64,000 nucleotides of DNA from Candidatus Baltobacteraceae bacterium (GTDB taxonomy: Bacteria; Vulcanimicrobiota; Vulcanimicrobiia; Vulcanimicrobiales; Vulcanimicrobiaceae), in contig DASXGW010000008.1 of the NCBI GenBank assembly GCA_036488875.1, positions 248,001 to 312,000 of the forward strand, read 5' to 3'. Made by a program: the position numbers and the translations under genes. The notes under the pieces were generated by a model, which searched no databases, was not told the DNA's origin, and was given only the letters and a program-made list of their open reading frames with translations. This document shows, one piece after another, positions 19,747 through 35,173 of this stretch. Each line of letters starts with the position of its first letter. Position 1 is the stretch's first letter.

Positions 19747-19813
19747 GCTTAAGAGGTAGCTAGGGCGACCTCGCCAACTTCTTTTGAGACCGAGGCCACC
19801 GAACGGAGCAGCT

Positions 19814-21463
19814 ATGAAGAGACTTGGTTTGCTCGTTGTCGCATTGCTGTTTTTGACAGCCTGCGCGCATGCGCCGGTGACGCCGGCCGTGCCCAACTCC
19901 CCGGCGGCCACGATGCGGGCGCTCCAGAGCGCGGTTGCGGGCACGAAGATCAAGCACATCGTCTTCATCATTCAGGAAAACCGCACGTTCGATAGTATCT
20001 TTGGGGGGAAAGATCCCTTCTCCGGCGCCGACGCCGTGTCGTATGGGTATTCTCACGACGGAAATAAAATCAAGTTGACGGAGGTCCCGCTCGAAAAGCC
20101 GTCGTGTCCGATTGGTTGGTTTTCGTGCGCGGACCCGAATAACTATCACCCGCAGTGGCTGCTCGCGTGCAACGCGCCGAACCCACCGCCGTTTCCCGTA
20201 GGCCAACCGGCTCCGTGCCGAATGAACGGCTTCGATCTCAACGCAAAACCGCAGAAAGGATTCCCCGTTCCGGTCGGCGTTGACGACAGCGTTATCTACT
20301 CATACGTGAACCGCACCGAAGTGCAGCCATACTGGGACCTCGCTAATTACTACGCACTGGGCGATCACTTTTTCATGGGCCACAACAGCGAGTCGTATAC
20401 GGCCCATCAGTACCTGTTCATGGGACAGTCACATAACACCGTCGACGCGCCTCAATTCGACCTCCCGAATCTAGGTGGTGGCTACTGCGACGCCTATTAC
20501 GTTTACTGCGCGTACACGCCGTGGGGCTGCGACTCGCCAAGCGGAACCAAGATGTACACGATCGACGCAAACGGGGCCGAGGTTCCAACGCCGCCGAAAT
20601 TTCCGAAGAGCGGGCCGGCACCGTGCTTCGGGGGATCCGGATACACGTCGCTCGCCGAGGCAGCCCAATCGAAAGGGCTGAGTTGGCGCGTCTATCTGTG
20701 GTCGATGTGCTCGGGCATCGACGCGCTCGACGCCAATAGCAACATAAGGCACAACGCGGACCTGTGGCCGCAAAACATTTCGATGCAGAACTGCCACCTT
20801 CGCTACGGGCCGGCATCGACCGGAGATGTCAACACGAAACATTTCCGAACGCCGAGCAACGAGTTTTTCGACGACGAGCTGCCGTACGCCGGGCATCCAG
20901 GGCGATCGCTCGCTTCCATTACGTGGATTATGCCGGGTCCGTACAACTCCGATCATCCCGGCATCTCGGGCGGTTATTGCGGGCCGACGTGGGTCGCAAG
21001 CATCGTCGACGCGATCGGGTCGAAACCCGATTGGGACTCGACCGTCATCTTCATCTTGTGGGACGACTGGGGCGGATTCTACGATCACGTACCGCCATAC
21101 GTCGTTCGCGACCAACAGGGTCCGGGATTTCGCGTACCGCTGATTGTCGTCTCGCCGTACATCAAGCGGGCGGGGATCATCGTGAAGACGCCGACCGAGT
21201 TCGCGACCTTGCTGAAGTTCGCCGAGACGACGTTCAACTTGCCATCGCTCAATGCGACCGACACGACACCTTACCTCAACGATCTCGACGCGTACTTCGA
21301 TTTCACTCATCCACCGTATAAATTCACGAATATCACGGCGCCCTATACCACTCGTTGTTACTGGAGCGCGCACGGAAACATCGCTGGCCGGAAGGAACGC
21401 GCTCCCGGGCCCGGCTCCGACCAGTCGCGCTGGCTGCGCATCATCAACGACGTTGCGGACTAA
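19814..21463 (+). CDS. Phospholipase C/acid-phosphatase family lipoprotein (phosphoesterase)
   Basis: 549 residues from the ATG at 19814, with GGAG upstream, beginning a lipoprotein signal (LGLLVVALLFLTACAH). The mature part belongs to the phosphoesterase family that includes bacterial non-hemolytic phospholipases C and AcpA: HIVFIIQENRTFDSIFG near the N-terminus, ALGDHFFMGHNSES, TWIMPGPYNSDHPG and WDDWGGFYDHVPP carry the conserved Glu, Asp and His set. It probably hydrolyses phosphate esters or phospholipids at the cell surface to scavenge phosphate. No pho box was identified. Confidence 0.88.
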   Translation: MKRLGLLVVALLFLTACAHAPVTPAVPNSPAATMRALQSAVAGTKIKHIVFIIQENRTFDSIFGGKDPFSGADAVSYGYSHDGNKIKLTEVPLEKPSCPIGWFSCADPNNYHPQWLLACNAPNPPPFPVGQPAPCRMNGFDLNAKPQKGFPVPVGVDDSVIYSYVNRTEVQPYWDLANYYALGDHFFMGHNSESYTAHQYLFMGQSHNTVDAPQFDLPNLGGGYCDAYYVYCAYTPWGCDSPSGTKMYTIDANGAEVPTPPKFPKSGPAPCFGGSGYTSLAEAAQSKGLSWRVYLWSMCSGIDALDANSNIRHNADLWPQNISMQNCHLRYGPASTGDVNTKHFRTPSNEFFDDELPYAGHPGRSLASITWIMPGPYNSDHPGISGGYCGPTWVASIVDAIGSKPDWDSTVIFILWDDWGGFYDHVPPYVVRDQQGPGFRVPLIVVSPYIKRAGIIVKTPTEFATLLKFAETTFNLPSLNATDTTPYLNDLDAYFDFTHPPYKFTNITAPYTTRCYWSAHGNIAGRKERAPGPGSDQSRWLRIINDVAD

Positions 21464-22225: not shown

Positions 22226-22301
22226 CGAGCGTCTCTTGCCCCCACTATTACGGAAATCCGCCATAGGAGCGGGGCGCGTCCCAAGCTACGATTATGGCCG
22301 G

Positions 22302-23270
22302 ATGCAGCTCCTCGAAGGGGAACCATACGTCGCGGTTATCCGCGGCGGTGTGGTCGAGTCGGTTCACAACGTCGCCGGATATGCCGTCGACGCGCGTGGC
22401 ATGCCCATCTTTTCGTTCGGCGCGGTCGACGTGCCGATCTACCTGCGCTCGGCGGCAAAGCCGTTCATCGCCGCGGCGGCCGTCGCCGCCGGCGTCGTCG
22501 AACGCTTTGGCCTGGAGGCGCGCGAGATCGCCGTCATGGCGGCATCGCACTCGGCCGAGTCGTTTCATCTGGAGACCGTGCGCTCCATCCTACGAAAAAT
22601 CGGCTTGGACGAAAGCGCGCTGCGTTGCGGTCCGGAGCCGCCTTTCATCGAGTCGATCACGAACAACTGCTCGGGCAAGCACGCGGGCATCCTGGCGCTG
22701 TGCATCGCCGTCGGGGCCGATCCCGCGACCTATCTCGATCCCTCCAACCCCGCGCAGCAGCGCATCCTCTCGTTTTGCGCGCGCGCGTCGGACGAAAAGC
22801 TCGAAACTTTGACGATCGCGGTCGACGGCTGCGGCATCCCGGTGTACGCGACGACCTTGCAAAAGGCGGCGCTGTCGTACCGGCGCCTGGCCACGCTCGA
22901 CGATCTCGATCCGAGCGACGCGCGGGCGCTGCGCATCGTGCGCGACGCGATGATCCTCAATCCGGAATACATGTCGGGAACCGGCGAGTTCGACGCGGCG
23001 ATGATTCGCGCGTATGAGGGGTCGCTGGTCTGTAAGGGCGGTGCCGAGGGCATCTTCGCCGGGGCCCTGATCGACGAACGCATCGGCTTCGTGATCAAGG
23101 TCATCGACGGCAACGAGCGGGCTCGGCCGCCGGCCGCGTGCGAAGCCCTTCGCCTGGCCGGACTGATGACGGAAACGCAGCTCCAGCGCGTGCGGACCTT
23201 CGCGCGTCCCGTCGTCAAGAACAAGAGCGGAAGGGTCGTGGGGGAGATACGGGCGATTCTCGATCGATGA
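22302..23270 (+). CDS. Zn-dependent L-asparaginase II (Rhizobium AnsA/ReAV type)
   Basis: 322 residues from the ATG at 22302. It hydrolyses asparagine to aspartate and ammonia. Residues described for the Rhizobium etli inducible enzyme are present with identical local spacing: Ser50 and Lys53 in RSAAKP, Cys123 and Lys126 in NNCSGKHAG, Asp175 and Cys177 in VDGCG, that is the Ser-Lys pair and the Cys/Lys/Cys zinc site. The first gene of a three-gene operon; its stop overlaps the start of the binding-protein/peptidase fusion (ATGA). Context suggests release and use of nitrogen from Asp/Asn-containing peptides. Confidence 0.92.
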   Translation: MQLLEGEPYVAVIRGGVVESVHNVAGYAVDARGMPIFSFGAVDVPIYLRSAAKPFIAAAAVAAGVVERFGLEAREIAVMAASHSAESFHLETVRSILRKIGLDESALRCGPEPPFIESITNNCSGKHAGILALCIAVGADPATYLDPSNPAQQRILSFCARASDEKLETLTIAVDGCGIPVYATTLQKAALSYRRLATLDDLDPSDARALRIVRDAMILNPEYMSGTGEFDAAMIRAYEGSLVCKGGAEGIFAGALIDERIGFVIKVIDGNERARPPAACEALRLAGLMTETQLQRVRTFARPVVKNKSGRVVGEIRAILDR

Positions 23271-25855
23271 TGCGCCGACTCGTCTTGGCGATGGTCGCGG
23301 CGGCTCTCCTCGCCGCTTGCGGGCGCCACGCCCCCGCTCCCGGCACCCTGGCGATCGCGCAGCAGTGGGAGCCGCGGTCGCTCAACCCCGCGCTGGAAAA
23401 CGGGACGTCGTCGACGCAATGGTCGATGCTGGTCTTCTCGTATCTCGTCAAATACGACGATAGCGGGAACCTCATCCCCGACATCGTGACCGAAGTGCCG
23501 ACCTTGCAAAACGGCGGCATTAGTGCCGACGGCAAGACGATTACGTATCACATTCGCAAAGGCATCCGCTTCGCCGACGGCACGCCGTTGACGGCGGCCG
23601 ACGCCGCGTGGTCGATCATGGCGATCAATAATCCAAAGAACAACGTGCAAACGCGCTTCGCGTACGATCAAGTGATTTCTGCCGACGCGCCCAATCCCAC
23701 CACGCTGGTTCTCCATCTCAAGAAGACGTTTCCGCCGCTGATCGTTACGGTGGGCGCGCCGCAGGGATTCCCGATCCTCCCTAAGCACGAACTCGCATCG
23801 CTGCCCGACATCAACTCGGCGCCGTTCAATCGTGCACCGTTCGGATCGGGCCCGTACATGGTTACTAACTGGGCTCCGGGCGATCGCGTCGAGCTCAAGG
23901 CCAATCCGTACTACTGGCAAGGTAAGCCGGGCATCTCGCACATTACCATTCGATTCATCGCCAACGCGCAGACGGCACTCAACATGCTGCGCACGCACGA
24001 AGTCGACGGTTACTTCGACTCACAGGATTACGGTATCTATCCGATCCTGCAGAGCATTCCCGGATACGTCGTTACGAGCACGCCGCAAAATGCGGTCGGT
24101 GCGATCATTTTCAACACGCAGGATCCGGTTACGAAAGATCCGCGCGTTCGTCACGCGTTAGCCGAAGCGATCGACATTCGGAGCACCGTTTCGAAAGCCT
24201 ATTTAAAGACCCTCGACAGCCGGCACGCGGGCGCGGGACTCTTCTTGTGGGCGTTCGACCCGAGCGCATACCCGGACGTTCCCTACGATCCGGCCGATGC
24301 ACGAAAACTGTTCGACGCGGCCGGTTGGCACGTGGGTGCCGACGGCATCCGTCAGAAGAACGGCGTTCCGCTGCACGTGCTGCTCATTTTGCAAGCCGAG
24401 ACGCCGGCCGACGGCGTCGCAGCGAACGACATCGCGCAGTACGAGCGCGCCGTCGGTGTGGGCGTGACGCTCAAGCAGTATCAAGTGACGCAGTTCGTCG
24501 CGCCGCCCGACCAAGGCGGCCCGGTCTACGGCGGCAAGTTCCAAATGGCGCTCTACTCGTTCGAAAACGGCGACGATCCCGACACGACCGACCAGTTTGC
24601 GTGCGCCAACGTTCCGCCCAACGGCTACAATAAGTCGCGCGTCTGCGATCCGCGTATCGACGCGCTGCTGCACCAAGGGCTGTCAACCTACGATCCGGCG
24701 GCGCGCAAGGCTACCTACGTGCAGCTGCAAAAGCTGCTCTACGACGAGTTGCCCATCGCGCTCATCTACCGCCGCACGCAAGTCAACGCATTCTCCGACG
24801 ACATCGTGAATCAAACGACGTCGCCCGCGGCGGGCGCGTGGTGGGACGTCGCGCATTGGACGTTCTGCCAGCCGCGCGTCTATCCGCCGGTGGGCAGCTA
24901 TAAACGCACGCCGACGCCGTTGCGGGGTCCCGGGTTGATTCTCGAGGGCGGCGGCACCGACATCGACGCGGAGTGGCATTGGGCGCACGCGACGATTTCG
25001 GGCGGATCCAAGGCGCGCTTCGGCAACGTGGTCGTGCTGCGCGCCGACGGCACCGACGACTACGATCCGTACATCTTGCCGCTGGGGCCGTTCCAGTCGG
25101 TGCGAACCATCATCATTCCGCACTGCCTGTCGCGCGAACAAGTCGACGCGTTGGCGCCGTACGTCGACGGTGCCGACGTGCTGTTCTTCTCGGGCGGCGA
25201 TCAAGCGAACTACGCACCGTGGAAAGGCAGCAAGCTGATCGACGCGGTGCGCAACGTGTGGAAGCGCGGCGGCGTTGAGGGAGGCACGAGCGCAGGCTTG
25301 GCGATTCAAGGTGCGGTCGGATACGATTCCGTCGCCGCCGACCGGCTGCATCCCAACGACGACGGGTTCGAGGTGCGCACGCCCGACGCGCTGCGCAATC
25401 CGTTCGAGCCCGAGATCAGCTTTACGAGCGACCTGCTCGTGTGGCCGCCGCTGCGCAACGTGATTACCGACACGCACTTCGCGCGGCGCGATCGTTTCGG
25501 GCGCTTGGTCACGTTCCTGGCGCGCATCGAACACGACCGCCGGTTGCCGACCGGCACGTTCTACGGATTGGCCGTCGACGAGCGCAGCGTGCTGCTCACC
25601 GATCGCAACGGCATCGCGACCTTGGCCGAATATCCCGGCAGCGGTTATGCCACGCGCGGAGCGTACCTGATCCATCTCGTCAACGTGCAGCAGCTGACCC
25701 CCGGCAAGCCGCTGAAGGCGACCGTCGAGGTGCTCCATCTCGACCATCCGGGCGCAAAACTCGACCTGAAGACCAAGGCAGGAGACGGCCCGATCTACCG
25801 CGTGACCGTGGACGGCAGCAAAACCTCACCTTATAGCCGAAACCCGTTCGAGTGA
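23267..25855 (+). CDS. Oligopeptide-binding lipoprotein fused to cyanophycinase-like S51 peptidase
   Basis: 862 residues in one uninterrupted frame from the ATG at 23267. Residues 1-19 are a lipoprotein signal with lipobox LLAAC. Residues about 25-545 are a family-5 extracellular solute-binding protein (ITYHIRKGIRFADGTPLTAAD, GSGPYMV, DPRVRHALAEAID). After a Pro-rich linker (VYPPVGSYKRTPTPLRG), residues about 553-862 match cyanophycinase/peptidase S51: ILEGGGTDID, a nucleophile elbow GGTSAG with Ser675, and TDTHFARRDRFGR with His737. S51 enzymes cleave beta-Asp-Arg or Asp-X bonds. The domain pair suggests capture and cleavage of Asp-rich peptides at the cell surface. No permease genes are adjacent. 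Confidence 0.85.
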   Translation: MMRRLVLAMVAAALLAACGRHAPAPGTLAIAQQWEPRSLNPALENGTSSTQWSMLVFSYLVKYDDSGNLIPDIVTEVPTLQNGGISADGKTITYHIRKGIRFADGTPLTAADAAWSIMAINNPKNNVQTRFAYDQVISADAPNPTTLVLHLKKTFPPLIVTVGAPQGFPILPKHELASLPDINSAPFNRAPFGSGPYMVTNWAPGDRVELKANPYYWQGKPGISHITIRFIANAQTALNMLRTHEVDGYFDSQDYGIYPILQSIPGYVVTSTPQNAVGAIIFNTQDPVTKDPRVRHALAEAIDIRSTVSKAYLKTLDSRHAGAGLFLWAFDPSAYPDVPYDPADARKLFDAAGWHVGADGIRQKNGVPLHVLLILQAETPADGVAANDIAQYERAVGVGVTLKQYQVTQFVAPPDQGGPVYGGKFQMALYSFENGDDPDTTDQFACANVPPNGYNKSRVCDPRIDALLHQGLSTYDPAARKATYVQLQKLLYDELPIALIYRRTQVNAFSDDIVNQTTSPAAGAWWDVAHWTFCQPRVYPPVGSYKRTPTPLRGPGLILEGGGTDIDAEWHWAHATISGGSKARFGNVVVLRADGTDDYDPYILPLGPFQSVRTIIIPHCLSREQVDALAPYVDGADVLFFSGGDQANYAPWKGSKLIDAVRNVWKRGGVEGGTSAGLAIQGAVGYDSVAADRLHPNDDGFEVRTPDALRNPFEPEISFTSDLLVWPPLRNVITDTHFARRDRFGRLVTFLARIEHDRRLPTGTFYGLAVDERSVLLTDRNGIATLAEYPGSGYATRGAYLIHLVNVQQLTPGKPLKATVEVLHLDHPGAKLDLKTKAGDGPIYRVTVDGSKTSPYSRNPFE

Positions 25856-28533
25856 TCTCTCCCGCTGCTTTCTCCGACGCATTCGTCGGGCGGCAAGAAG
25901 AACTGGAGCTGCTCGCCGACGCGTTTCGCAGCGCGTGCGACGGACGATCGCGCTTCGTGCGAATCGAAGGCGAAGCGGGCATCGGCAAATCGCGCCTCGT
26001 GCGCGAATTCTCCGGGCGGCTCGGCGATTCGGCAGTCATTGCGGCCGGCGGCTGCGTCGAACAGATTCGCCGGCCGTATCTGCCCATCGAACAAGTGCTC
26101 GAGCGGCTCGGGCGCCGTCCCCGTCTTCCGGCGCCGTACGACGGACGCACGCACGCCGAAGAGCGCGCGGCGTACTTTCAAGGCGTCGCCGAAGCGCTCG
26201 AGCGCGAATCCGCGCGCAAACCGCTGGCGATCGTGATCGAAGACGTGCAATGGGCCGACGACGCGACGATCGATCTGCTGCGCTACCTCACCACCGCGAT
26301 CGAAGAAGCGCGCGTGCTAGTGATTATTACGGTGCGCACGGCGACGATGCTGTCCAATCCGGCACTCGCAGCGCTGCGCTTGAGCCTGCTGCGCGTGCGC
26401 GGTCCCTCGATCGTGCTGCGCGGACTGCGCCGGTTCGACATCCGCAACCTCATCGGCAACGTCGTGCGCGATCACGAAACCGAGATTCCGCTGCAAACGA
26501 TTGCCAAGATCGAGTCGCTCTGCGACGGAAATCCGTTGTTTGCCGAAGAGTTGACGCGCATCGCGATCGATTCGGGCGAGATCGTGCTGGGCACGTCGTC
26601 GCCGCTCTCGGCGCACGCAATGCTCAGCGAACGTCTCGCGACCTTTTCCGAAGACGAGCGCAGCGTGCTGGTTCGCGCGGCGATCGTCGGCCAGCACTTC
26701 GACTCGGGCTTCGTGGCCGAGATCGCCGGCACGACCACCGACCGCGTGCTCGCGACCATGCAGCGCGCGCTCGATCACGAGCTGGTCATCACCGACCGCG
26801 TGCATCCGCACCGGTTTGCGTTTCGCCATTCGCTGATCCGGCAGGTATTGGCCGACCGGCTCGTGCTGGGATTGGCGGCCCCGCTGCACTTGCGCATCGC
26901 GCGCGGCATCGAAAACGGACAGCACGCGTCGAAGCGTGCAGCCGAGTTGGCGTTTCACTATTCGGAGGCGCGCGTCGCCGATAAAGCGCGCTATTATAAC
27001 GAGCTCGCGGCGCAGGCGGCGTGGGACGTCTACGCCTACCGCGACGCGATTCACTTTTATAGCGCGGCGCTGCAGTGGGACTATCCGCCGGGGCTCGCGC
27101 GCGCCGCGATTTACGAACGGCTCGGCACGCTGCTCTATATCGAAGGCGTCGGCGAAGAACCCGCGCGCTGGTTCGAGCGCGCGCGCGCCGAGTACGAGCA
27201 AATCGAAGACGAGATCGGCTACTGCCAAGCACTGTTGATGATCGCCGATCAGCGCTGGGTCGACGCGCGCACGTCGGAAGGCGCGCAAGCCGCGTCCGAA
27301 GCGGCGGTGCGTCTCGAGCGTTTGGGTGAGACGCGTCCGTGGCTCTCCGCAACGCTGTCGGTGGCGCGCTACGCGGTGACGCTCGGCGATCCGCAGCGCG
27401 CGGCGGCCCTCCTCGACGACATCGGCCGCCGGCACGCGCATTTCGACGCGCCGCTCAACGTCGCGTTTTACGAAGTGCGCGCCGAGACGCGCGCGGCGTT
27501 GGGTCAAGCGGCCGGTGCGCTCGCCGACGGCGCGCACGCGGTGCGGCTCGCGCGCGAAACCGGTTCGAGCGAGCTGGTCGCGCAGGTCGAAAATAACGTC
27601 GCGCTCGTCGCGGCCGATTTGGGCGAGCTCGACCTCGCGGGCGAGCACCATCGAAGCGCGCTGGCCGAAGCGCACCGCACCGGATTGCTCTGGCGCGTGG
27701 CGTATTGCGCGCTCAACTACGCGCAGACGCTGGCGTGGAGCGGCGAGTTAACGCGCGCGCGTGCGATGGTACTGGAAGCGCTCGATTGCGGCGTTACGAC
27801 GGCGACGTTCAAAACGAAAGCCGCGGCGGTGGGCGTTCCGATCGCGCTCGCGCTCAACGATCGCGCGCTGTTGCTCGCGTGTGCGGACGACCGGGCGCTC
27901 GAGTACGCGCGTCAGTCGGGTGAGATTCAGCGCGTCGCCGCCGGCGGCGCCGCATTTGCCGAACTGCTTCGCGCGCAAGGTGATGCCGCGCGGGCGCGCA
28001 CGACGCTCAGCGAAACCGTCGCATCGGTCGAGACGAGCCATCGCGCTTGGAATCTGTGGTCCTACGTCGCGTTATGCGGGCGTCCGGCCGACCTGGAACG
28101 AGCGCGGGACGTCTTGGCCCGGTCGACGGGCAGGCCGCGGATGATGCGCGCGCACCGGCTCCTGCTCGCCGGGCACTACGCGGCTGCCGAACGCGTCTTT
28201 GCGCGGCTGGGATTCCGCTGGCACGCTGCGTTGAGCGCCGAGCTGGCCGGCGATCGCGAACGCGCCCGGCAGTCCTACGAAGCTATGGGCGCCGTGCGTG
28301 ACGCAGCCCGCCTGGCCGAACCGCACGTTGACGGCAAGCCCGGCAGCGGCCTGACGGCGCGCCAAACGCAGATTGCCGAACTCGTGGCACAGGGCGAGAT
28401 CAATCGCACGATCGCGGCCCGCCTCCATATCAGCGAGCACACCGTCGAGCACCATTTGACCGGAATTTTCGCACGGCTGGGCGTCAAATCGCGCGCGCAG
28501 CTGATCGCGCGCTGGATCGGCTCGCGCTCATAG
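25852..28533 (+). CDS. LuxR-family ATPase transcriptional regulator (LAL/MalT-like)
   Basis: 893 residues from a GTG overlapping the previous stop by four bases. The N-terminal AAA_16-type NTPase has FVGRQEELELL and Walker A GEAGIGKS at residues 40-47, with a Walker-B-like IVIEDVQWADD. The middle is a long Ala-rich helical region resembling TPR repeats. The C-terminal 60 residues are a LuxR helix-turn-helix (LTARQTQIAELVAQGEINRT, then HISEHTVEHHL). Translational coupling suggests that it senses a ligand, perhaps a peptide or amino acid, and controls the asparaginase/peptidase operon. That ligand is inference. Confidence 0.88.
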   Translation: MISPAAFSDAFVGRQEELELLADAFRSACDGRSRFVRIEGEAGIGKSRLVREFSGRLGDSAVIAAGGCVEQIRRPYLPIEQVLERLGRRPRLPAPYDGRTHAEERAAYFQGVAEALERESARKPLAIVIEDVQWADDATIDLLRYLTTAIEEARVLVIITVRTATMLSNPALAALRLSLLRVRGPSIVLRGLRRFDIRNLIGNVVRDHETEIPLQTIAKIESLCDGNPLFAEELTRIAIDSGEIVLGTSSPLSAHAMLSERLATFSEDERSVLVRAAIVGQHFDSGFVAEIAGTTTDRVLATMQRALDHELVITDRVHPHRFAFRHSLIRQVLADRLVLGLAAPLHLRIARGIENGQHASKRAAELAFHYSEARVADKARYYNELAAQAAWDVYAYRDAIHFYSAALQWDYPPGLARAAIYERLGTLLYIEGVGEEPARWFERARAEYEQIEDEIGYCQALLMIADQRWVDARTSEGAQAASEAAVRLERLGETRPWLSATLSVARYAVTLGDPQRAAALLDDIGRRHAHFDAPLNVAFYEVRAETRAALGQAAGALADGAHAVRLARETGSSELVAQVENNVALVAADLGELDLAGEHHRSALAEAHRTGLLWRVAYCALNYAQTLAWSGELTRARAMVLEALDCGVTTATFKTKAAAVGVPIALALNDRALLLACADDRALEYARQSGEIQRVAAGGAAFAELLRAQGDAARARTTLSETVASVETSHRAWNLWSYVALCGRPADLERARDVLARSTGRPRMMRAHRLLLAGHYAAAERVFARLGFRWHAALSAELAGDRERARQSYEAMGAVRDAARLAEPHVDGKPGSGLTARQTQIAELVAQGEINRTIAARLHISEHTVEHHLTGIFARLGVKSRAQLIARWIGSRS

Positions 28534-28568: not shown

Positions 28569-28574
28569 TATAAT
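28569..28574 (+). promoter_or_regulatory. Putative -10 box upstream of TonB-dependent receptor
   Basis: A perfect TATAAT stands 31 bases before the receptor start in a 71-base intergenic region. No convincing TTGACA lies 16-18 bases upstream, so a sigma-70-type promoter with a weak -35 is inferred. The region after it holds GGAGTTGGAGGGAG as a strong ribosome-binding site. Confidence 0.5.
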
Positions 28575-28604: not shown

Positions 28605-31600
28605 ATGAACGTTTCGCTTATTCACCGCACCGCGGGCGCTTTTCTGGCGCTGGCGCTCGTGCTTTCACCCGTCTCGAGCGTCGTTGCCGGGACCACCGGA
28701 TCGATCACCGGTACGGTCGTGGATGCGACGGCTCACGCGCCGATCGCTGGAGCGGCCGTCACGGTCGTCAGCCCGTCGCAGATCGCAACCGTCACTACCG
28801 ACGCGTCCGGGCGGTTCACGTTCATCTCCCTCGCTCCGGACACGTACACGGTCTCCGCGCGTAAGGCCGGCTATGACGAACAGTCCGTGGCCGGCATCTC
28901 GGTGTTCGCCGATCAGAGCCAATCGGTCCCCGTCGCGCTTCAAAAGAGTCTCAAGCAGATCGCGCACGTTACCTCGCGCTCCTCGCTCAGCCCGGTTCGT
29001 CCCGGCACCGGAACCGACGTCTACTCGGTGAATCCGGCAGTCGCGACCGCCTCCGCCACGCTGGGCGGCGGCGGCGGAATGAACACCGCCTATTCGGCCA
29101 TCGCGGCGATGCCCGGCGCGTACGTGCCGCCCAACCAGGTCGGCGTCAATCAGACCGTCTATATTCGCGGCGGTTACTACGATCAAATCGGATTTGAGTA
29201 CGACGGCGTTCCGGTTAACCGGTCGTTCGATAACTATCCCAGCAGTGGTTTGACGACGCTGGGCCAACAAGAGCTGCAGATTTATACCGGCGGCGGCGAG
29301 GCCGACGCCAACGCCACCGGCCTGGGCGGCTTCATCAACCAGGTTATTAAGACGGGCACGTTTCCGGGTTACGCGGTCGGCGGCTTGGCCATGGGGACGC
29401 CCACGTTCTATCACGACGCACGCGTTGAAGTCGGCGGTGCGACGCCCGACCGGCTCTTCTCGTACTACGTGGGCGTGAGCGGGACGAATCAGGCGTTCCG
29501 TTACTTCGACCAATACAACGGCGCCAGTCTGAGCGATACGGTTCCCTACGGAACGTATCCGTCGGACGAGACGACCAATCTGGCGTTCTTCCCCGCGGTG
29601 TATCCCACGTGCAACGCCAACACGACCTACACGAACCCGGCGGCAAACGGTGCTCACGCGTTCCTTTATAAGGATCCCGGTTGTTTCGGCTATTTCCCCG
29701 CAAACTACGGACAGCCGTCCGACGTCGATGACCGGCAGGTCGTCGCCAACATGCACTTCGGCGTACCGCACAAGAACGACAGCGGCCGCGACGACATCCA
29801 GTTGCTGTACATGTCGTCGGCGACGTTCACGCAGTACTACTCCAGCGTCAACGACGCGGGCCCGCTGGGCTTGGGCATCGTCAATAGCGGCACTCTCAAC
29901 TATCACGACTTCTACGCGGGCCTTACCAATCAGTGGGGTGATTTCTACACCTTCCCCGGCGGAACGAAGTGGCTTGCACCGGCCTCGACGCCGCCGATCG
30001 CGTATCTGTACCCCGGCTCGCCGACCGGCCGCTGCGCCAATGTCGTTGGCGTTCCCGGCGCCTGTCCGGAAGATGCGCGGGGCAATCAGGAAACCGTACA
30101 GATTCCCAATGATTATCGCGACGGACGCTGGGACACGGCAGGCATCGTCAAGCTGCAGTATCAGAAAAACATGGGCTCCAACGCCTACCTGCGTCTATTC
30201 GGCTACACCTTTTATTCCAACACCAACCGCGCGACCGCCAACGGCTGGGGCAACGCGTACGCGTTCGGCGTAACCAACTATCAGTACGAAGTCGACTCGC
30301 ACACGCGCGGACTCGAGTTGCAGTTTGCGGATCAAATCTCGAGCTCCAACTTGGTGAGCGGCATGCTGTCGTACTTGGACTCCGGTACGCTGCGGTATTA
30401 CAGTCACCAGTACGACAACACCGGTTCGGCACAGGTCAGTAACTTCACCGACGGCAACATCTGTTACAGCACGAAGGACACGAAGCACTATCCGATCGGC
30501 CATCCCGCGCCGTGCAACAAGGCCATATCGCAGGGATTCTTCAGTGCGCCCTACGGCTACAACGTCGATACCCAGGATCCGTGCGCGGCCGGGGAAGTCC
30601 CGGCGAACTCGCCGGCGTGCCGCAACGGCGCCGCGATGAATCTCACGTACCTCGGCAACAACGCCGACTACAACTCGGTTATGCCGAAGGTCAGCAGCGG
30701 TTCGATACAGGACCAATGGCGCCCGACGGATCGCTGGAATCTCAACGCGGCGCTCCGCTACGAAAACGATACCTTCGATTTGGCAAACACGGATAACCCC
30801 GGCACGAACTTCTGGTTCAATGCGGCGCAGCGCGAGTTCTGCGTCAATCCGGTCACCCGGCAGCCGATCTTCGTTCCGCAGCCGCCGCAGTACATCTACT
30901 ACTATCAGCCGCTCGTGACGTTCCACTGCCCGATCGATCGTTCCACCGGAACTGCGATTCAAACGGTGCATCCCAACGGTACCGACGGCATTCTGCTGAC
31001 GAACAACTATCCGTCGCAGTACAGCCAGACGTATTTCCTGCCGCGCCTCTCGCTGACGTACGCGGCCAGCCCCGATACCGTGTTCCGCGCTTCGGCCGGA
31101 CGTTACGCGCAAGCGCCGCAAAACTACGAGATTCAGTATGCGACCGCACAGCCGAATCTCGCGTCGACCTTGCTCGGGTTCATTCCCTTCGGGTTCAACT
31201 CGCCGCTGCATCCGTCGCAAGCGCAGTTCTCAAATAACTACGACGTTTCGTGGGAGCAGCATTTGCGGGGAACGGACATCGCGTTCAAGGTAACGCCGTA
31301 TTTCCGCTGGGGAACCAATCAGCTCTATGAATCGGTCGATCTCCCGAGCCTCGGCGTCTCGCCGTCGTTCAACGCAGGAACGCTTCGCGTGGACGGTGTG
31401 GAGTTCGAACTCACCAAGGGCGATTTCGACAAGAACGGCTTGTCGGGTATTTTCTCGTACACGTACACGAACTCGTCCGAGAAGTGGGGAGACTATCCCA
31501 ACAGCACCATCGGTCCGGTCGATCAGTACATTCAAGATATCCAAGAGTTCAACGCCCTGACCAAGAAGGGCGGCGGCGCACCCTGCTACACGCCGGATCG

Positions 31601-32363
31601 TACCGGAACGGCGGCACCCGGCTGTCCGTCAACGTCGATTCGCAATCCGTACTATGCGATGGCGCCGCAGCCGCTGCTCGACCCGCACGCGTGGTATACC
31701 ACGGGACTGGATTACCCGTACCTATCGCCCAACACGTTCTCGCTCGTCTTGAACTATCGTCATGGAAAGTTCGCGTTCACTCCGGCGATGTCGCTGCAAG
31801 AGGGAACGACCTACGGAAATCCGTCCGACGTCCAGGGCATGGATCCGCGTTCCTGTTACTCCAACCAGCGCACCTCCGGCGTTCCCTCGAGCACGCCGCT
31901 CAATGCCGATTACACGTCGTGCAGCCACGCGCTCACGAGTGACGGAACCACGCCCGGCAAGCTGTACATCCCCAATCCGCAGACCGGCACGTTCGACCAG
32001 TTCGGTCAGTTCCAGCAGCCTTGGCAGTTCAATCTCGGCGCGCAGTTGTCGTATGACGTATCGCCGCGCATTACCACGAAGTTCATCGTCACGAACATCC
32101 TCAACACGTGCTTCGGCGGCTCGAGTACGCCATGGACGAAAGCCTATCCGCCGGGCGGCTTCACGTGCGCCTATACGTACAACAAGTTCTACAACAACGG
32201 GAACAACTTCAACGAGGGAACCTCAGCGTACGATCTCAGGGCGAACGGCGTCGCGGAGAATCCATACTTTGCGAACTCGTTCGTACCGTCGTACGGCGAT
32301 CCGTTCTCAGGGAACTATCCGCTCGCACTGAACATGTACTTCTCGGTGAACGTCAAGCTCTAA
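28605..32363 (+). CDS. TonB-dependent receptor with N-terminal carboxypeptidase-regulatory-like domain
   Basis: 1252 residues, ATG with strong GGAGG upstream. A Sec signal (AGAFLALALVLSPVSSVVAG) is followed by a CarboxypepD_reg-like domain at about 30-115 (GSITGTVVDATAHAPIAGA...SGRFTFISLAPDTYTV). The plug domain comes next (VYIRGGYYDQIGFEYDGVPV, GGFINQVIKTG), then a long beta-barrel rich in Tyr, Asn and Pro ending in FSVNVKL, as expected for outer-membrane insertion. The layout is that of Oar/SusC-like receptors of Acidobacteria and related groups. The substrate is unknown. Downstream are two NHL-type lipoproteins that could be surface partners. Confidence 0.9.
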   Translation: MNVSLIHRTAGAFLALALVLSPVSSVVAGTTGSITGTVVDATAHAPIAGAAVTVVSPSQIATVTTDASGRFTFISLAPDTYTVSARKAGYDEQSVAGISVFADQSQSVPVALQKSLKQIAHVTSRSSLSPVRPGTGTDVYSVNPAVATASATLGGGGGMNTAYSAIAAMPGAYVPPNQVGVNQTVYIRGGYYDQIGFEYDGVPVNRSFDNYPSSGLTTLGQQELQIYTGGGEADANATGLGGFINQVIKTGTFPGYAVGGLAMGTPTFYHDARVEVGGATPDRLFSYYVGVSGTNQAFRYFDQYNGASLSDTVPYGTYPSDETTNLAFFPAVYPTCNANTTYTNPAANGAHAFLYKDPGCFGYFPANYGQPSDVDDRQVVANMHFGVPHKNDSGRDDIQLLYMSSATFTQYYSSVNDAGPLGLGIVNSGTLNYHDFYAGLTNQWGDFYTFPGGTKWLAPASTPPIAYLYPGSPTGRCANVVGVPGACPEDARGNQETVQIPNDYRDGRWDTAGIVKLQYQKNMGSNAYLRLFGYTFYSNTNRATANGWGNAYAFGVTNYQYEVDSHTRGLELQFADQISSSNLVSGMLSYLDSGTLRYYSHQYDNTGSAQVSNFTDGNICYSTKDTKHYPIGHPAPCNKAISQGFFSAPYGYNVDTQDPCAAGEVPANSPACRNGAAMNLTYLGNNADYNSVMPKVSSGSIQDQWRPTDRWNLNAALRYENDTFDLANTDNPGTNFWFNAAQREFCVNPVTRQPIFVPQPPQYIYYYQPLVTFHCPIDRSTGTAIQTVHPNGTDGILLTNNYPSQYSQTYFLPRLSLTYAASPDTVFRASAGRYAQAPQNYEIQYATAQPNLASTLLGFIPFGFNSPLHPSQAQFSNNYDVSWEQHLRGTDIAFKVTPYFRWGTNQLYESVDLPSLGVSPSFNAGTLRVDGVEFELTKGDFDKNGLSGIFSYTYTNSSEKWGDYPNSTIGPVDQYIQDIQEFNALTKKGGGAPCYTPDRTGTAAPGCPSTSIRNPYYAMAPQPLLDPHAWYTTGLDYPYLSPNTFSLVLNYRHGKFAFTPAMSLQEGTTYGNPSDVQGMDPRSCYSNQRTSGVPSSTPLNADYTSCSHALTSDGTTPGKLYIPNPQTGTFDQFGQFQQPWQFNLGAQLSYDVSPRITTKFIVTNILNTCFGGSSTPWTKAYPPGGFTCAYTYNKFYNNGNNFNEGTSAYDLRANGVAENPYFANSFVPSYGDPFSGNYPLALNMYFSVNVKL

Positions 32364-32411: not shown

Positions 32412-33491
32412 ATGCGTAGCGCCGTCGCGCTTGCTTTGTTTGCCGTTCTCGCCGGATGTTCTTCCGCCGGCGATCGTAGTTCTTTTGGGCCATACGCGGC
32501 CTCGCCGCGTTTGCGGTCGGTTTCGGCTAGTCCAGCGCCGTATCTGTACGTCGCGAGTCCGGCATCGTCGCCGTACCCCTCGGGGTCCGTCGAAGAATAT
32601 CCACTCGGCAGTGCGGTCCCCATCCGTACGATCGTTGCAGGCATCGACTCGCCCAGTGGTCTCGCGCTCGATCGCGCGAGTAATCTTTACGTCGCCAACT
32701 ACGCCGCCAATACGGTAACGGTGTACGCGCCCGGCGCGACGAAGCCGTCGCGCACGATCGAAAAGGGAATCGATCGTCCGACGGCCCTTGCCTTCAGCCA
32801 TGCCGGAAATCTGTTCGTGTTGAACGAGCCCAGCATAAGCGGCGACGCGCCCGGCTCCGTAGTCGTTTTTTCGCCCACTGGAATTAACCCGCTGCACACG
32901 ATCACGCAAGGCATCAACGAACCGCACGCTCTGGCGTTCGACTCGGCGGACCGGCTATACGTTGCAAATCTCTTTTATGGGCGCCTCTCGTCGGCCAATG
33001 GCGGCATCTCCGTGTATTCGCAAGGAGGCGTCGCACCGATCCGCAGCATTACCGACGGCATCAGGGTTCCGACGCACATCGCTTTCAACTCGCGCGGACA
33101 CCTTTACGTGAGCAATTATGGAACCTCATACGAAGTAAACTATCCCTATAACAGGGGAGACGTCGCGATCTATGGAGCGGGGACGTCGAAACGCAAGCAT
33201 ACGATCAGGACCGGCGTGCAGAATCCGAGCACGCTGGCCATCGACTCTCAAGACGTGCTCTATGTCACGTGCAACTATAACTGCACGAACGGCGGAATCG
33301 TCGAGTACGAGCCCGGAGGGAAGACACCCGTCCGGACGCTCTCAGCGTACGCGTCGACGCTGCTGATCGACGCCGGCGACAATCTTTATGCCGGTAACTA
33401 TAACAGCGTGAGCGTATTCGCACCCGCCGCTACCAGCCCGACCTATACGATCGATCGCGGCGCCAACGCTCTAGCGTTCGGAAATCTGTAA
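32412..33491 (+). CDS. NHL/SMP-30-like beta-propeller lipoprotein
   Basis: 359 residues with a lipoprotein signal (VALALFAVLAGCSS). The rest is about six repeats of roughly 47 residues with the core NLYVANYAANTVTVYAPG followed by a GI..P..LAF turn, typical of NHL-type propellers. These are often annotated as hypothetical or SMP-30-like; no calcium or lactonase residues are evident. The stop overlaps the ATG of the next, related lipoprotein by one base, so they are cotranscribed and probably arose by duplication. Confidence 0.78.
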   Translation: MRSAVALALFAVLAGCSSAGDRSSFGPYAASPRLRSVSASPAPYLYVASPASSPYPSGSVEEYPLGSAVPIRTIVAGIDSPSGLALDRASNLYVANYAANTVTVYAPGATKPSRTIEKGIDRPTALAFSHAGNLFVLNEPSISGDAPGSVVVFSPTGINPLHTITQGINEPHALAFDSADRLYVANLFYGRLSSANGGISVYSQGGVAPIRSITDGIRVPTHIAFNSRGHLYVSNYGTSYEVNYPYNRGDVAIYGAGTSKRKHTIRTGVQNPSTLAIDSQDVLYVTCNYNCTNGGIVEYEPGGKTPVRTLSAYASTLLIDAGDNLYAGNYNSVSVFAPAATSPTYTIDRGANALAFGNL

Positions 33492-35173
33492 TGCGCCGAA
33501 CGCTCGCCGTGGTGCTTCTGGCCGGATGCACGGGCAACCCGGGCCCGCATGGCTTCGTCCCAAGCTCATGGCAAGACGCGGGCGCGCGGCCGGTCGCTAC
33601 GGCGGCGAGCGCAGAGATTACGTTTCGAATCGACGTTCCGCCGGCCTCAGGCAGCAAGAGATCAAAATTCATTTCGCCGTCGAGCAGATCTGCGGCAATT
33701 GCGTTATATTCGCCTTCGGGCGCGAAGCGCGCTTCGGCGTACACCAATCTCACCGCTGGGATCAACCAACGAACGCTCCGGGTGCCGGTTGGTCCGTACC
33801 GCGCCTCGATCAATCTGTTCGACGGCCCGTTGGGAGCCCAAGGCGTTCCCAGCGGTCACAAGCTCTCCACGAACGACAATTTGCCGGTCTACGTGCCGTC
33901 GTACGATGTCACAATTTTCCTTGGGATCTATCTCAACGGCATTCCCAAAGGTGTGCGTGTCTCCGCGCCAATGGCAGGCGATCAAAAATCGGGATTCAGT
34001 CTCAATCCATGCCAACGGTTCCCACAGATTTTCACGCTTACTGCGCTCGACGCCGCTGGAAACGTCATCATCGGCCCCGGAGCACCAACGTCAACGCTCC
34101 AATCGACTGCCGGACTTCTCGTCTCGCCCGCCGGTCTGACCGAGCCCAACGAGTTTATCGTTGATGCCGATCCAAACGCGCCTGCCGGACCGGCAACGCT
34201 CACGGCTGCGATGAAACAGAATGGCTCTGCGGGGAACCATGCCAGCACCGCCACGTTTAGCGTGTCGAGCGCGCCCGTTAGTCCCGACGGCTGTCTCTTG
34301 GTTGGAAACGACCAGATACTTGGCAACTTAAGAAACGTGGAGATCTATCCACCGGGGGCCGTCGATCCTGTCGGCACGATGACCGACGGCATCGAAGAGC
34401 CATATGCGTTTGCATTCGACGGAGCCAAGAATCTCTACGTCGCCAATAACGATGGAAGTGGCGTGACGGAGTATGCGCAAAACGCCGCTACGCCAATGCG
34501 CACCTTGCCGAGTAACGAGCCATTCGCCGTCGCGGTGGACTCGTCGGGGAACGCCTACACCGCCGACTTCGGCGCGAATACGGTTTCGGTATTTCCGCCG
34601 GGCACTTCAACGCCGTCCTATCAGATCGGCGTGGTGCAGCCCGCCGCACTGGCGTTTGACGGCTCCGGGAACCTGTACGTCGGCAGTCGGACTGGGCCCA
34701 TTTCGGCAAGCGGTACGGTATCGGTGTACGCGCCGGGCGCTAAGACGTCGTCGAGAACCCTGAGCGTAGGCAATGACGTGGCCGCACTGGTGTTCGACCA
34801 CGCGGGTAACTTGTACGTACTAGATTACGGCTCCAATTCGATCGTGGTATTCGCGCCAGGTGCCTCTTCGCCGAGCCACGCGATCGCTACGGGAATTAAC
34901 GAGCCGCGGGCACTTGCCGTCGACAGCTCCAACAACCTGTACGTGGCCAATTATCGGAATTCGAACGTTACCGTCTATGCGCCCGGGCAAAGCACACCGT
35001 CCAGAAGGCTGTCGACCGGTATAAACACGTGGGCGGTAACGGTGGACTCGAGCGACCGGCTTTATGTCGGAACGACGAAGCGCGTATTGGTGTACGCTGC
35101 GGGTTCCAGCACGCCGAGCCTTGTCATTAGGAACGGTATCGCCGGCGCGATAACGCTAGCCGTTACGCCGTAA
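33491..35173 (+). CDS. Lipoprotein with N-terminal FxSP module and NHL-type propeller
   Basis: 560 residues. A short lipoprotein signal (TLAVVLLAGCTG) is followed by a beta-rich module at about 40-255 with FRIDVP, KFISPSSRSAAIAL, GPYRASI and FTLTALDAAGNVIIGPGAP. This matches element by element the module of the PQQ-propeller lipoprotein at 2375-4522. The C-terminal 300 residues are NHL-like repeats (NLYVANNDGSGVTEYAQ, NLYVANYRNSNVTVYAPG) similar to those of the preceding gene. Role unknown; surface scaffold or ligand binding is plausible. The 3' end overlaps the convergent GT87-like gene by 11 bases. Confidence 0.75.
   Translation: MRRTLAVVLLAGCTGNPGPHGFVPSSWQDAGARPVATAASAEITFRIDVPPASGSKRSKFISPSSRSAAIALYSPSGAKRASAYTNLTAGINQRTLRVPVGPYRASINLFDGPLGAQGVPSGHKLSTNDNLPVYVPSYDVTIFLGIYLNGIPKGVRVSAPMAGDQKSGFSLNPCQRFPQIFTLTALDAAGNVIIGPGAPTSTLQSTAGLLVSPAGLTEPNEFIVDADPNAPAGPATLTAAMKQNGSAGNHASTATFSVSSAPVSPDGCLLVGNDQILGNLRNVEIYPPGAVDPVGTMTDGIEEPYAFAFDGAKNLYVANNDGSGVTEYAQNAATPMRTLPSNEPFAVAVDSSGNAYTADFGANTVSVFPPGTSTPSYQIGVVQPAALAFDGSGNLYVGSRTGPISASGTVSVYAPGAKTSSRTLSVGNDVAALVFDHAGNLYVLDYGSNSIVVFAPGASSPSHAIATGINEPRALAVDSSNNLYVANYRNSNVTVYAPGQSTPSRRLSTGINTWAVTVDSSDRLYVGTTKRVLVYAAGSSTPSLVIRNGIAGAITLAVTP

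Follow-up and report, generated by a model that had tools for sequence, protein, structure and literature searches.

The question raised by this locus is whether three tightly coupled genes, encoding an asparaginase, a lipoprotein that joins a binding protein to a peptidase, and a large LuxR-type regulator, form a self-controlled pathway and, if so, for which nitrogen compound. They lie in a 64,000-nucleotide stretch of Candidatus Baltobacteraceae contig DASXGW010000008.1 (the window, whose own positions are used throughout), part of a genome of 3.7 Mb in 15 contigs (G000). An earlier note described the trio as a self-controlled pathway for nitrogen from Asp/Asn peptides. All three genes are where it placed them, with overlaps ATGA between genes 1 and 2 and GTGA between genes 2 and 3. 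They form one functional unit, very probably controlled by the regulator, but the membership proposed was too narrow: a second S51 gene was missed, and so was a TonB-type receptor gene, which begins 71 bp past the regulator gene and is part of the same conserved cluster. The locus is real, regulated and larger than first described, it contains a rare fusion, and a predicted operator supports self-control. Our preferred reading, to which we give a probability of roughly 0.55, is that the locus scavenges beta-aspartyl (cyanophycin-type) peptides under its own regulation. We infer the substrate from the evidence given below, and it is the weakest link.

The proposed route would begin with the TonB-type receptor, taking soluble oligomers through the outer membrane. 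A membrane-anchored lipoprotein with its S51 domain on the C-terminus of the binding protein would catch the released dipeptide where it is made, and the loaded binding domain would dock onto an Opp/Dpp-type permease encoded elsewhere. Inside the cell, the class-3 asparaginase, a general IaaA-type enzyme or both would split the dipeptide into Asp and Arg (or another residue) and deamidate Asn. An intracellular product would activate the ATPase-LuxR regulator, which would then bind a 19-bp site at two local promoters and at a second secreted S51 gene; since its own gene is third in the asparaginase operon, the regulator would activate its own expression as well. The nitrogen role, the transport direction, the hand-over of the dipeptide and the regulator ligand are those that we propose for this scheme. 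Were this substrate confirmed, nitrogen polymer left by cyanobacteria and other producers would be a food source of these soil bacteria.

The nearest relatives by sequence are metagenome-assembled Candidatus Eremiobacterota, and the comparisons use 99 genomes of the family and 149 of the phylum. CphA1 exceeds its cut-off in five of the 149 phylum genomes and in none of the family, so the host and its family were rejected as producers of cyanophycin and an external substrate is expected. Neighbourhoods were counted at 35 Eremiobacterota S51 loci and, within the same lineages, at 58 control loci. Some controls had been selected because they contain asparaginase or binding-protein genes, others are further stretches of the source genome, and their lengths differ; seven loci from distant families (L046-L052) and unfetched matches are left out of the S51-locus counts.

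The lipoprotein and its S51 domain

The second gene encodes a protein of 862 residues with a lipobox (LLAAC, Cys18). Residues 84-440 reach the Pfam family score for SBP_bac_5 (235 bits). In a model of the whole fusion (predicted local distance difference test score, pLDDT, 89; predicted template-modelling score, pTM, 0.78), the nearest binding-protein structures are NikZ, AapF and AppA, with a template-modelling (TM) score, by target, of 0.90 for 4oet. Residues 26-531 have the same SBP_bac_5 fold as the Opp/Dpp/Nik binding proteins (NikZ, AppA, DppA), from which the window protein differs in being a lipoprotein with a C-terminal peptidase, in an operon without a permease.

The C-terminus matches TIGR02069 at E 3.6e-12, below the curated cut-off. 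An AlphaFold2 model of this domain, made with an alignment of 20 relatives, has a pLDDT of 92.4. Its best Foldseek match is a cyanophycinase with a bound cyanophycin dimer (7uqw, E 4e-15, TM 0.63/0.75), followed by 7uqv and 3en0 (E 4e-15 to 6e-14 for the set). The S51 residues are Ser675 and His737, and the pocket is formed by Gln646, Asp735, Thr736, Arg741, Arg743 and Arg746. Excerpts of PMC3235067 give Gln101, Asp172, Gln173, Arg178, Arg180, Arg183 and Ser132 as the critical residues of CphB. All are present in the aligned S51 domain except Gln173, which is replaced by Thr; according to the same excerpts, the secreted CphE of Pseudomonas alcaligenes also has Thr at this position. By modelled structure and by pocket the domain is cyanophycinase-like, yet it lies outside the cut-offs of both family models (TIGR02069 and Pfam S51). 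The resemblance to secreted CphE (P. alcaligenes/anguilliseptica) includes the Thr pocket and, in free-standing relatives, the leader; in contrast to CphE, the window domain is below the TIGR02069 equivalog cut-off and is fused behind a solute-binding lipoprotein.

The earlier note placed the peptidase at the cell surface. A location outside the cytoplasm is probable from leaders, the fusion joint and a cysteine pair. Free-standing S51 relatives carry hydrophobic N-terminal leader sequences (judged by eye). In the fusion, the end of the binding protein (WWDVAHWTF) runs directly onto the S51 N-terminal segment CQPRVYPPVGSY with no leader between. The Cys of this segment and a second Cys (IPPC) are both present in 25 of 30 proteins and both absent in five, with no protein having a single one (30 of 33 proteins scored, the three without the N-terminal motif being left out). 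This both-or-neither pattern points to a disulfide and to an extracytoplasmic domain.

The fusion is rare, being found only in the window and in two other genomes, G047 and G049 (L056, L057; L103, L104), and we found no published report of an S51 peptidase or cyanophycinase fused to a solute-binding protein in open-licence papers. It is a natural chimera of solute-binding protein and exopeptidase and could serve as a model for product capture at the site of cleavage. Enzyme fusions are not common among the binding proteins of the source genome: this idea was rejected, as only one of its 19 SBP_bac_5 genes has a C-terminal enzyme. Other long SBP_bac_5 frames are 5' extensions in the gene-caller listing and not fusions.

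The locus might instead scavenge ordinary alpha-aspartyl or asparaginyl peptides derived from protein, using a PepE-like S51 enzyme, an S9 peptidase and the asparaginase. The S51 family does include PepE, for which the available part of PMC9239234 gives hydrolysis of Asp-X dipeptides. An S9 prolyl-oligopeptidase-family gene (at least 42% identity) is in the cluster at four of the 35 S51 loci, and free Asn would be a substrate of the asparaginase. This alternative deserves serious attention, but we consider it rather unlikely, since both pocket and fold are cyanophycinase-like and not PepE-like: Salmonella PepE, the closest PepE, ranks after the cyanophycinases in Foldseek (E 5e-7 compared with 4e-15).

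The cluster and its predicted operator

The earlier note suggested a synteny search for the trio. The exact trio is not kept: asparaginase and fusion occur together in three genomes, and the regulator is directly joined to them in the window only. The conserved core consists of the LuxR regulator, the TonB receptor, S51, and the solute-binding protein and/or the asparaginase. S51 homologues are present in 44 of the 149 phylum genomes. S51 has a TonB-receptor homologue (at least 49% identity) no more than 3 kb away at 12/35 loci and is accompanied by a LuxR orthologue (at least 44%) at 5/35; each count is 0/58 in the controls. Asparaginase is found within 3 kb at seven of the 35 S51 loci and a binding protein within 1.1 kb at nine. 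The set is complete in G108 (LuxR, TonB, S9, S51, binding protein and asparaginase), while G107, G058, G060 and G093 are each short of one or two parts and the congener G073 has an S51 gene alone, between purH and a TonB gene. This wider set recurs only in Eremiobacterota. Outside that group it was not found among 78 loci from a scan of genome contigs, and the neighbours occur in Eremiobacterota loci only.

The regulator has the N-terminal AAA_16 ATPase and C-terminal GerE helix-turn-helix of MalT/LAL-type LuxR regulators, and its predicted site near -42 is also as in that group. It differs in the distribution of its orthologues (46-53% identity), which are confined to five of the 99 family genomes and, in these, to this cluster. 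A sixth homologue, of 37% identity, lies beside an asparaginase gene in G076. This confinement and a shared operator-like site support the self-control that had been proposed. The upstream region 22226-22301, which the earlier note singled out for a binding test, does hold such a site (22248-22266), and a like site precedes the TonB gene.

In all five genomes with a LuxR orthologue, the TonB gene has this 19-bp site (consensus TAGCGGAAATCCGCGATAG) upstream, with a -10 box 19-20 bp beyond the site. Where TonB genes have an intact upstream region but no LuxR neighbour, the site is absent (0/4; best score 1.6 compared with 23.8-27.8; one-sided Fisher p 0.008). A matrix was trained on the TonB promoters of four other genomes, excluding the source genome, and used to scan 83 stretches of the latter (1.56 Mb with overlaps, about 42% of the genome) for sites of at least 9 bits with a TAnnnT box at the right distance, the reversed sequence serving as control. 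Three correctly spaced sites were obtained, before the TonB gene (28531, 19.2 bits), the asparaginase operon (22248, 14.9 bits) and the second secreted S51 gene (L054:9669, 14.7 bits). The control gave one, at 12.4 bits, and none of 13 bits or more. The matrix loses its specificity when no -10 box is required (29 real and 16 control matches at 13 bits). A wider matrix applied to 1.14 Mb of 77 other loci gave two further matches with a spaced -10 box and no tie to the pathway (L052, 15.0 bits; L045, 12.3 bits). Four high-scoring matches without a -10 box (two in L271, one each in L246 and L245) and one at L274 were set aside as they are inside called coding frames.

If the boxes are -10 elements, the operator would be centred near -42, and LuxR-type activators commonly bind near this position. 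We consider it probable, from this arrangement, that the site is bound by the window regulator. With TACGAT as its -10 box, the transcript of the asparaginase operon would be nearly leaderless. The asparaginase genes of G047 and G049 have a like site upstream as well; at L057:506-533 (G049) the operator is kept and the -10 box of the G047 gene is gone, by promoter decay or assembly error. An Rfam scan of 19-36 kb of the window gave no match, and a generic promoter and terminator scan was uninformative, its counts being the same as the shuffled level. A regulator, its candidate operator and a small regulon are thereby described from a poorly characterised, largely uncultured phylum. All features are collected in Table 1.

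Table 1. Features of the locus and of its predicted regulon (window positions unless another locus is named)
Feature	Position	Strand	Basis
Predicted operator, asparaginase promoter, for the LuxR-type regulator; core CGGAAATCCG, near-palindromic	22248..22266	+	Four-genome matrix match
Candidate -10 box TACGAT, 20 bp past operator; presumed function	22287..22292	+	Spacing
Asparaginase, class-3 (PF06089), cluster paralogue; SxxK, CSGK and DGC motifs intact	22302..23270	+	Pfam, motifs, tree
Lipoprotein, SBP_bac_5 fused to S51 cyanophycinase-like peptidase	23267..25855	+	Profile matches, model
Fused S51 domain including conserved N-terminal segment (CQPRVYPPVGSY...)	24866..25852	+	Alignment, model, Foldseek
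Regulator, AAA_16 to GerE, LuxR-type, MalT/LAL-like	25852..28533	+	Pfam
Predicted operator, TonB-receptor promoter; begins on regulator stop codon	28531..28549	+	Best matrix match, 19.2 bits
Candidate -10 box TATAAT, 19 bp past operator; presumed function	28569..28574	+	Spacing
TonB-dependent receptor, CarboxypepD_reg N-domain; conserved S51 neighbour	28605..32363	+	Pfam, neighbourhood counts
NHL beta-propeller protein, 48-bp gap after TonB gene, possibly co-transcribed	32412..33491	+	Pfam
NHL beta-propeller protein, 1-bp overlap with preceding NHL gene; possible operon end	33491..35173	+	Pfam
Second S51 lipoprotein gene, same predicted operator, TACAAT box 21 bp downstream	L054:9669-10876 (G000:C7 about 181668-182875)		Matrix match

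These data also bear on the possibility that the genes lie together by coincidence or have only a loose connection, and that a general regulator uses the 19-bp site. No other locus has the exact order of the trio, many S51 loci are solitary and the scan covered only 42% of the genome, all of which would fit such an explanation. We nevertheless judge it improbable: the site and the LuxR gene co-occur (5/5 compared with 0/4), and every correctly spaced site in the scanned sequence, three in number, is on a gene of the pathway.

The asparaginase, uptake and the substrate

For the beta-aspartyl scavenging pathway that we prefer, the final step would fall to the asparaginase and/or an IaaA-type enzyme. 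The description of the asparaginase as a Zn-type enzyme is borne out by its motifs. The protein exceeds the Asparaginase_II cut-off by a wide margin (PF06089, 330.1 compared with 25 bits). The class-3 residues known from ReAV are two Ser-Lys tandems and zinc ligands, according to the sections of PMC8602277 that list them; in the alignment both tandems and the ligands Cys, Lys and Cys are present (RSAAK, ASH, NNCSGK, DGC, CKGGAEG). Like Rhizobium etli ReAIV and ReAV, the window enzyme is a full-length PF06089 protein with the SxxK, zinc-ligand CxxK and Cys motifs; it differs from them as a separate S51-cluster paralogue with a 14-residue deletion, and its activity is a prediction.

PF06089 proteins are found in 94 of the 99 family genomes. 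At the loci opened, the widespread copy usually adjoins a PALP-family gene and in many cases metH as well. A tree supports the housekeeping clade (98/92) and puts all seven cluster copies outside it, so that the cluster asparaginases are, by sequence, a lineage separate from the housekeeping copies. The deletion, of the 14 residues before the zinc motif, is shared by the window, G047 and G049. Among the aligned positions that separate cluster from housekeeping enzymes there is no active-site change.

The source genome has one IaaA-type gene (PF01112), outside the cluster (G000:C13:395922). IaaA was not detected in G047, G058, G060, G107 or G108, and IadA exceeds its cut-off in none of the 99 family genomes. 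The lack of IaaA in these relatives and of IadA in the family leaves room for the cluster asparaginase as a dipeptidase. Chemically, beta-aspartyl dipeptides are asparagines substituted at N4. We offer, as a tentative and rather doubtful extension, that the cluster asparaginase became a zinc-type beta-aspartyl dipeptidase in the iaaA/iadA slot, with the lipoprotein as a cut-and-capture device, in a cyanophycin-type scavenging regulon that has a LuxR-type regulator and an operator to itself. Provided that the substrate is correctly assigned, this would give class-3 asparaginases a possible natural role beyond free asparagine. No link of class-3 asparaginase or ReAV to cyanophycin was found in open-licence papers. 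The idea that IaaA is lacking more often in genomes with a cluster asparaginase than in other S51 genomes was dropped as not significant (2/7 and 9/17, p 0.39); overall, S51 and IaaA co-occur (11/24 compared with 12/75, p 0.005).

As the earlier note observed, there is no ABC permease gene within the locus; an Opp/Dpp-type pair is found elsewhere (G000:C13:73412-74996). The source genome has 19 SBP_bac_5 proteins and nine BPD_transp_1 matches. Three of these permease genes were scanned: the pair has Opp/Dpp-type N-terminal domains and C1:346349 is without them. There are therefore 19 binding proteins to one identified Opp/Dpp-type pair (with three of the nine permease matches examined), and a single permease may serve many orphan binding proteins.

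For passage through the outer membrane, the TonB-type protein has a receptor barrel (PF00593, 62 compared with 27 bits), and the source genome has seven TonB_C matches. No plug domain is reported for the window protein, and two orthologues have a sub-threshold match. With its CarboxypepD_reg domain, barrel and weak plug match, and with its gene directly adjoining S51 and S9 peptidases, it could also work outward, aiding export of the peptidases for digestion outside the cell. The reported export of PopC in Myxococcus (PMC6434023) provides a precedent in Oar, to which our protein is likened by description and not by sequence comparison. We find this very unlikely, as the binding protein gives the window peptidase a lipid anchor, and this favours a membrane as its place of action. 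Defence or self-protection, with S51 inactivating microcin C-type aspartyl-nucleotide antibiotics, has a basis in the resistance that some S51 enzymes confer (parts of PMC9239234), but is the least credible of all, these enzymes acting inside the cell and the window domain being predicted to be extracytoplasmic and co-regulated with uptake genes.

The scavenging of cyanophycin-type peptides can be compared with the cyanophycin utilization locus of Ben Hania et al. (2017), as described in excerpts of PMC10206079. Both have a cyanophycinase-like enzyme and uptake functions in genomes without CphA1. The window differs from the locus in these excerpts by its TonB receptor, its orphan binding protein fused to the peptidase, its class-3 asparaginase and its dedicated LuxR-type regulator, and by having no iadA, iaaA or inner-membrane permease in the cluster. 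No published report of cyanophycin in Eremiobacterota was found in open-licence papers.

Several observations weigh against this reading. The S51 domain scores 49.5 bits with TIGR02069 (curated cut-off 126.6) and 18.9 bits with Pfam S51 (PF03575; gathering cut-off 23.9), and several relatives have Gln or Ala in place of Glu, the third residue of the triad. There is no TonB neighbour at 23 of the 35 S51 loci and no nearby asparaginase at 28. Neither iadA nor iaaA is among the window genes scanned for the cluster, and canonical cyanophycin loci carry one. G047 and G049 have the site with no LuxR orthologue detected (their assemblies are incomplete, 85% and 63%), and the asparaginase promoter of G049 has no -10 box. 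About 30 genomes also have members of the binding-protein subfamily at places without S51, and the subfamily may therefore bind something other than a cyanophycin dipeptide.

Other arrangements of these genes were also encountered. The same binding-protein subfamily adjoins tsaD, not peptidases, in eight genomes (L202, L203, L204, L206, L209, L210, L211 and L220; assigned by Pfam for L206 and by clustering for the others). G076 (L191, L192) has three separate LuxR-ATPase/asparaginase gene pairs, and in G114 (L200) a binding protein is grouped with an asparaginase and a LuxR homologue at a locus that lacks S51. In G060 (L034) the cluster of S51 and binding protein runs straight into the PALP-asparaginase-metH housekeeping locus. 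Genes for PC-PLC/acid-phosphatase-like phosphoesterases are often near S51 loci (19784-21463 in the window), and this family is multicopy here.

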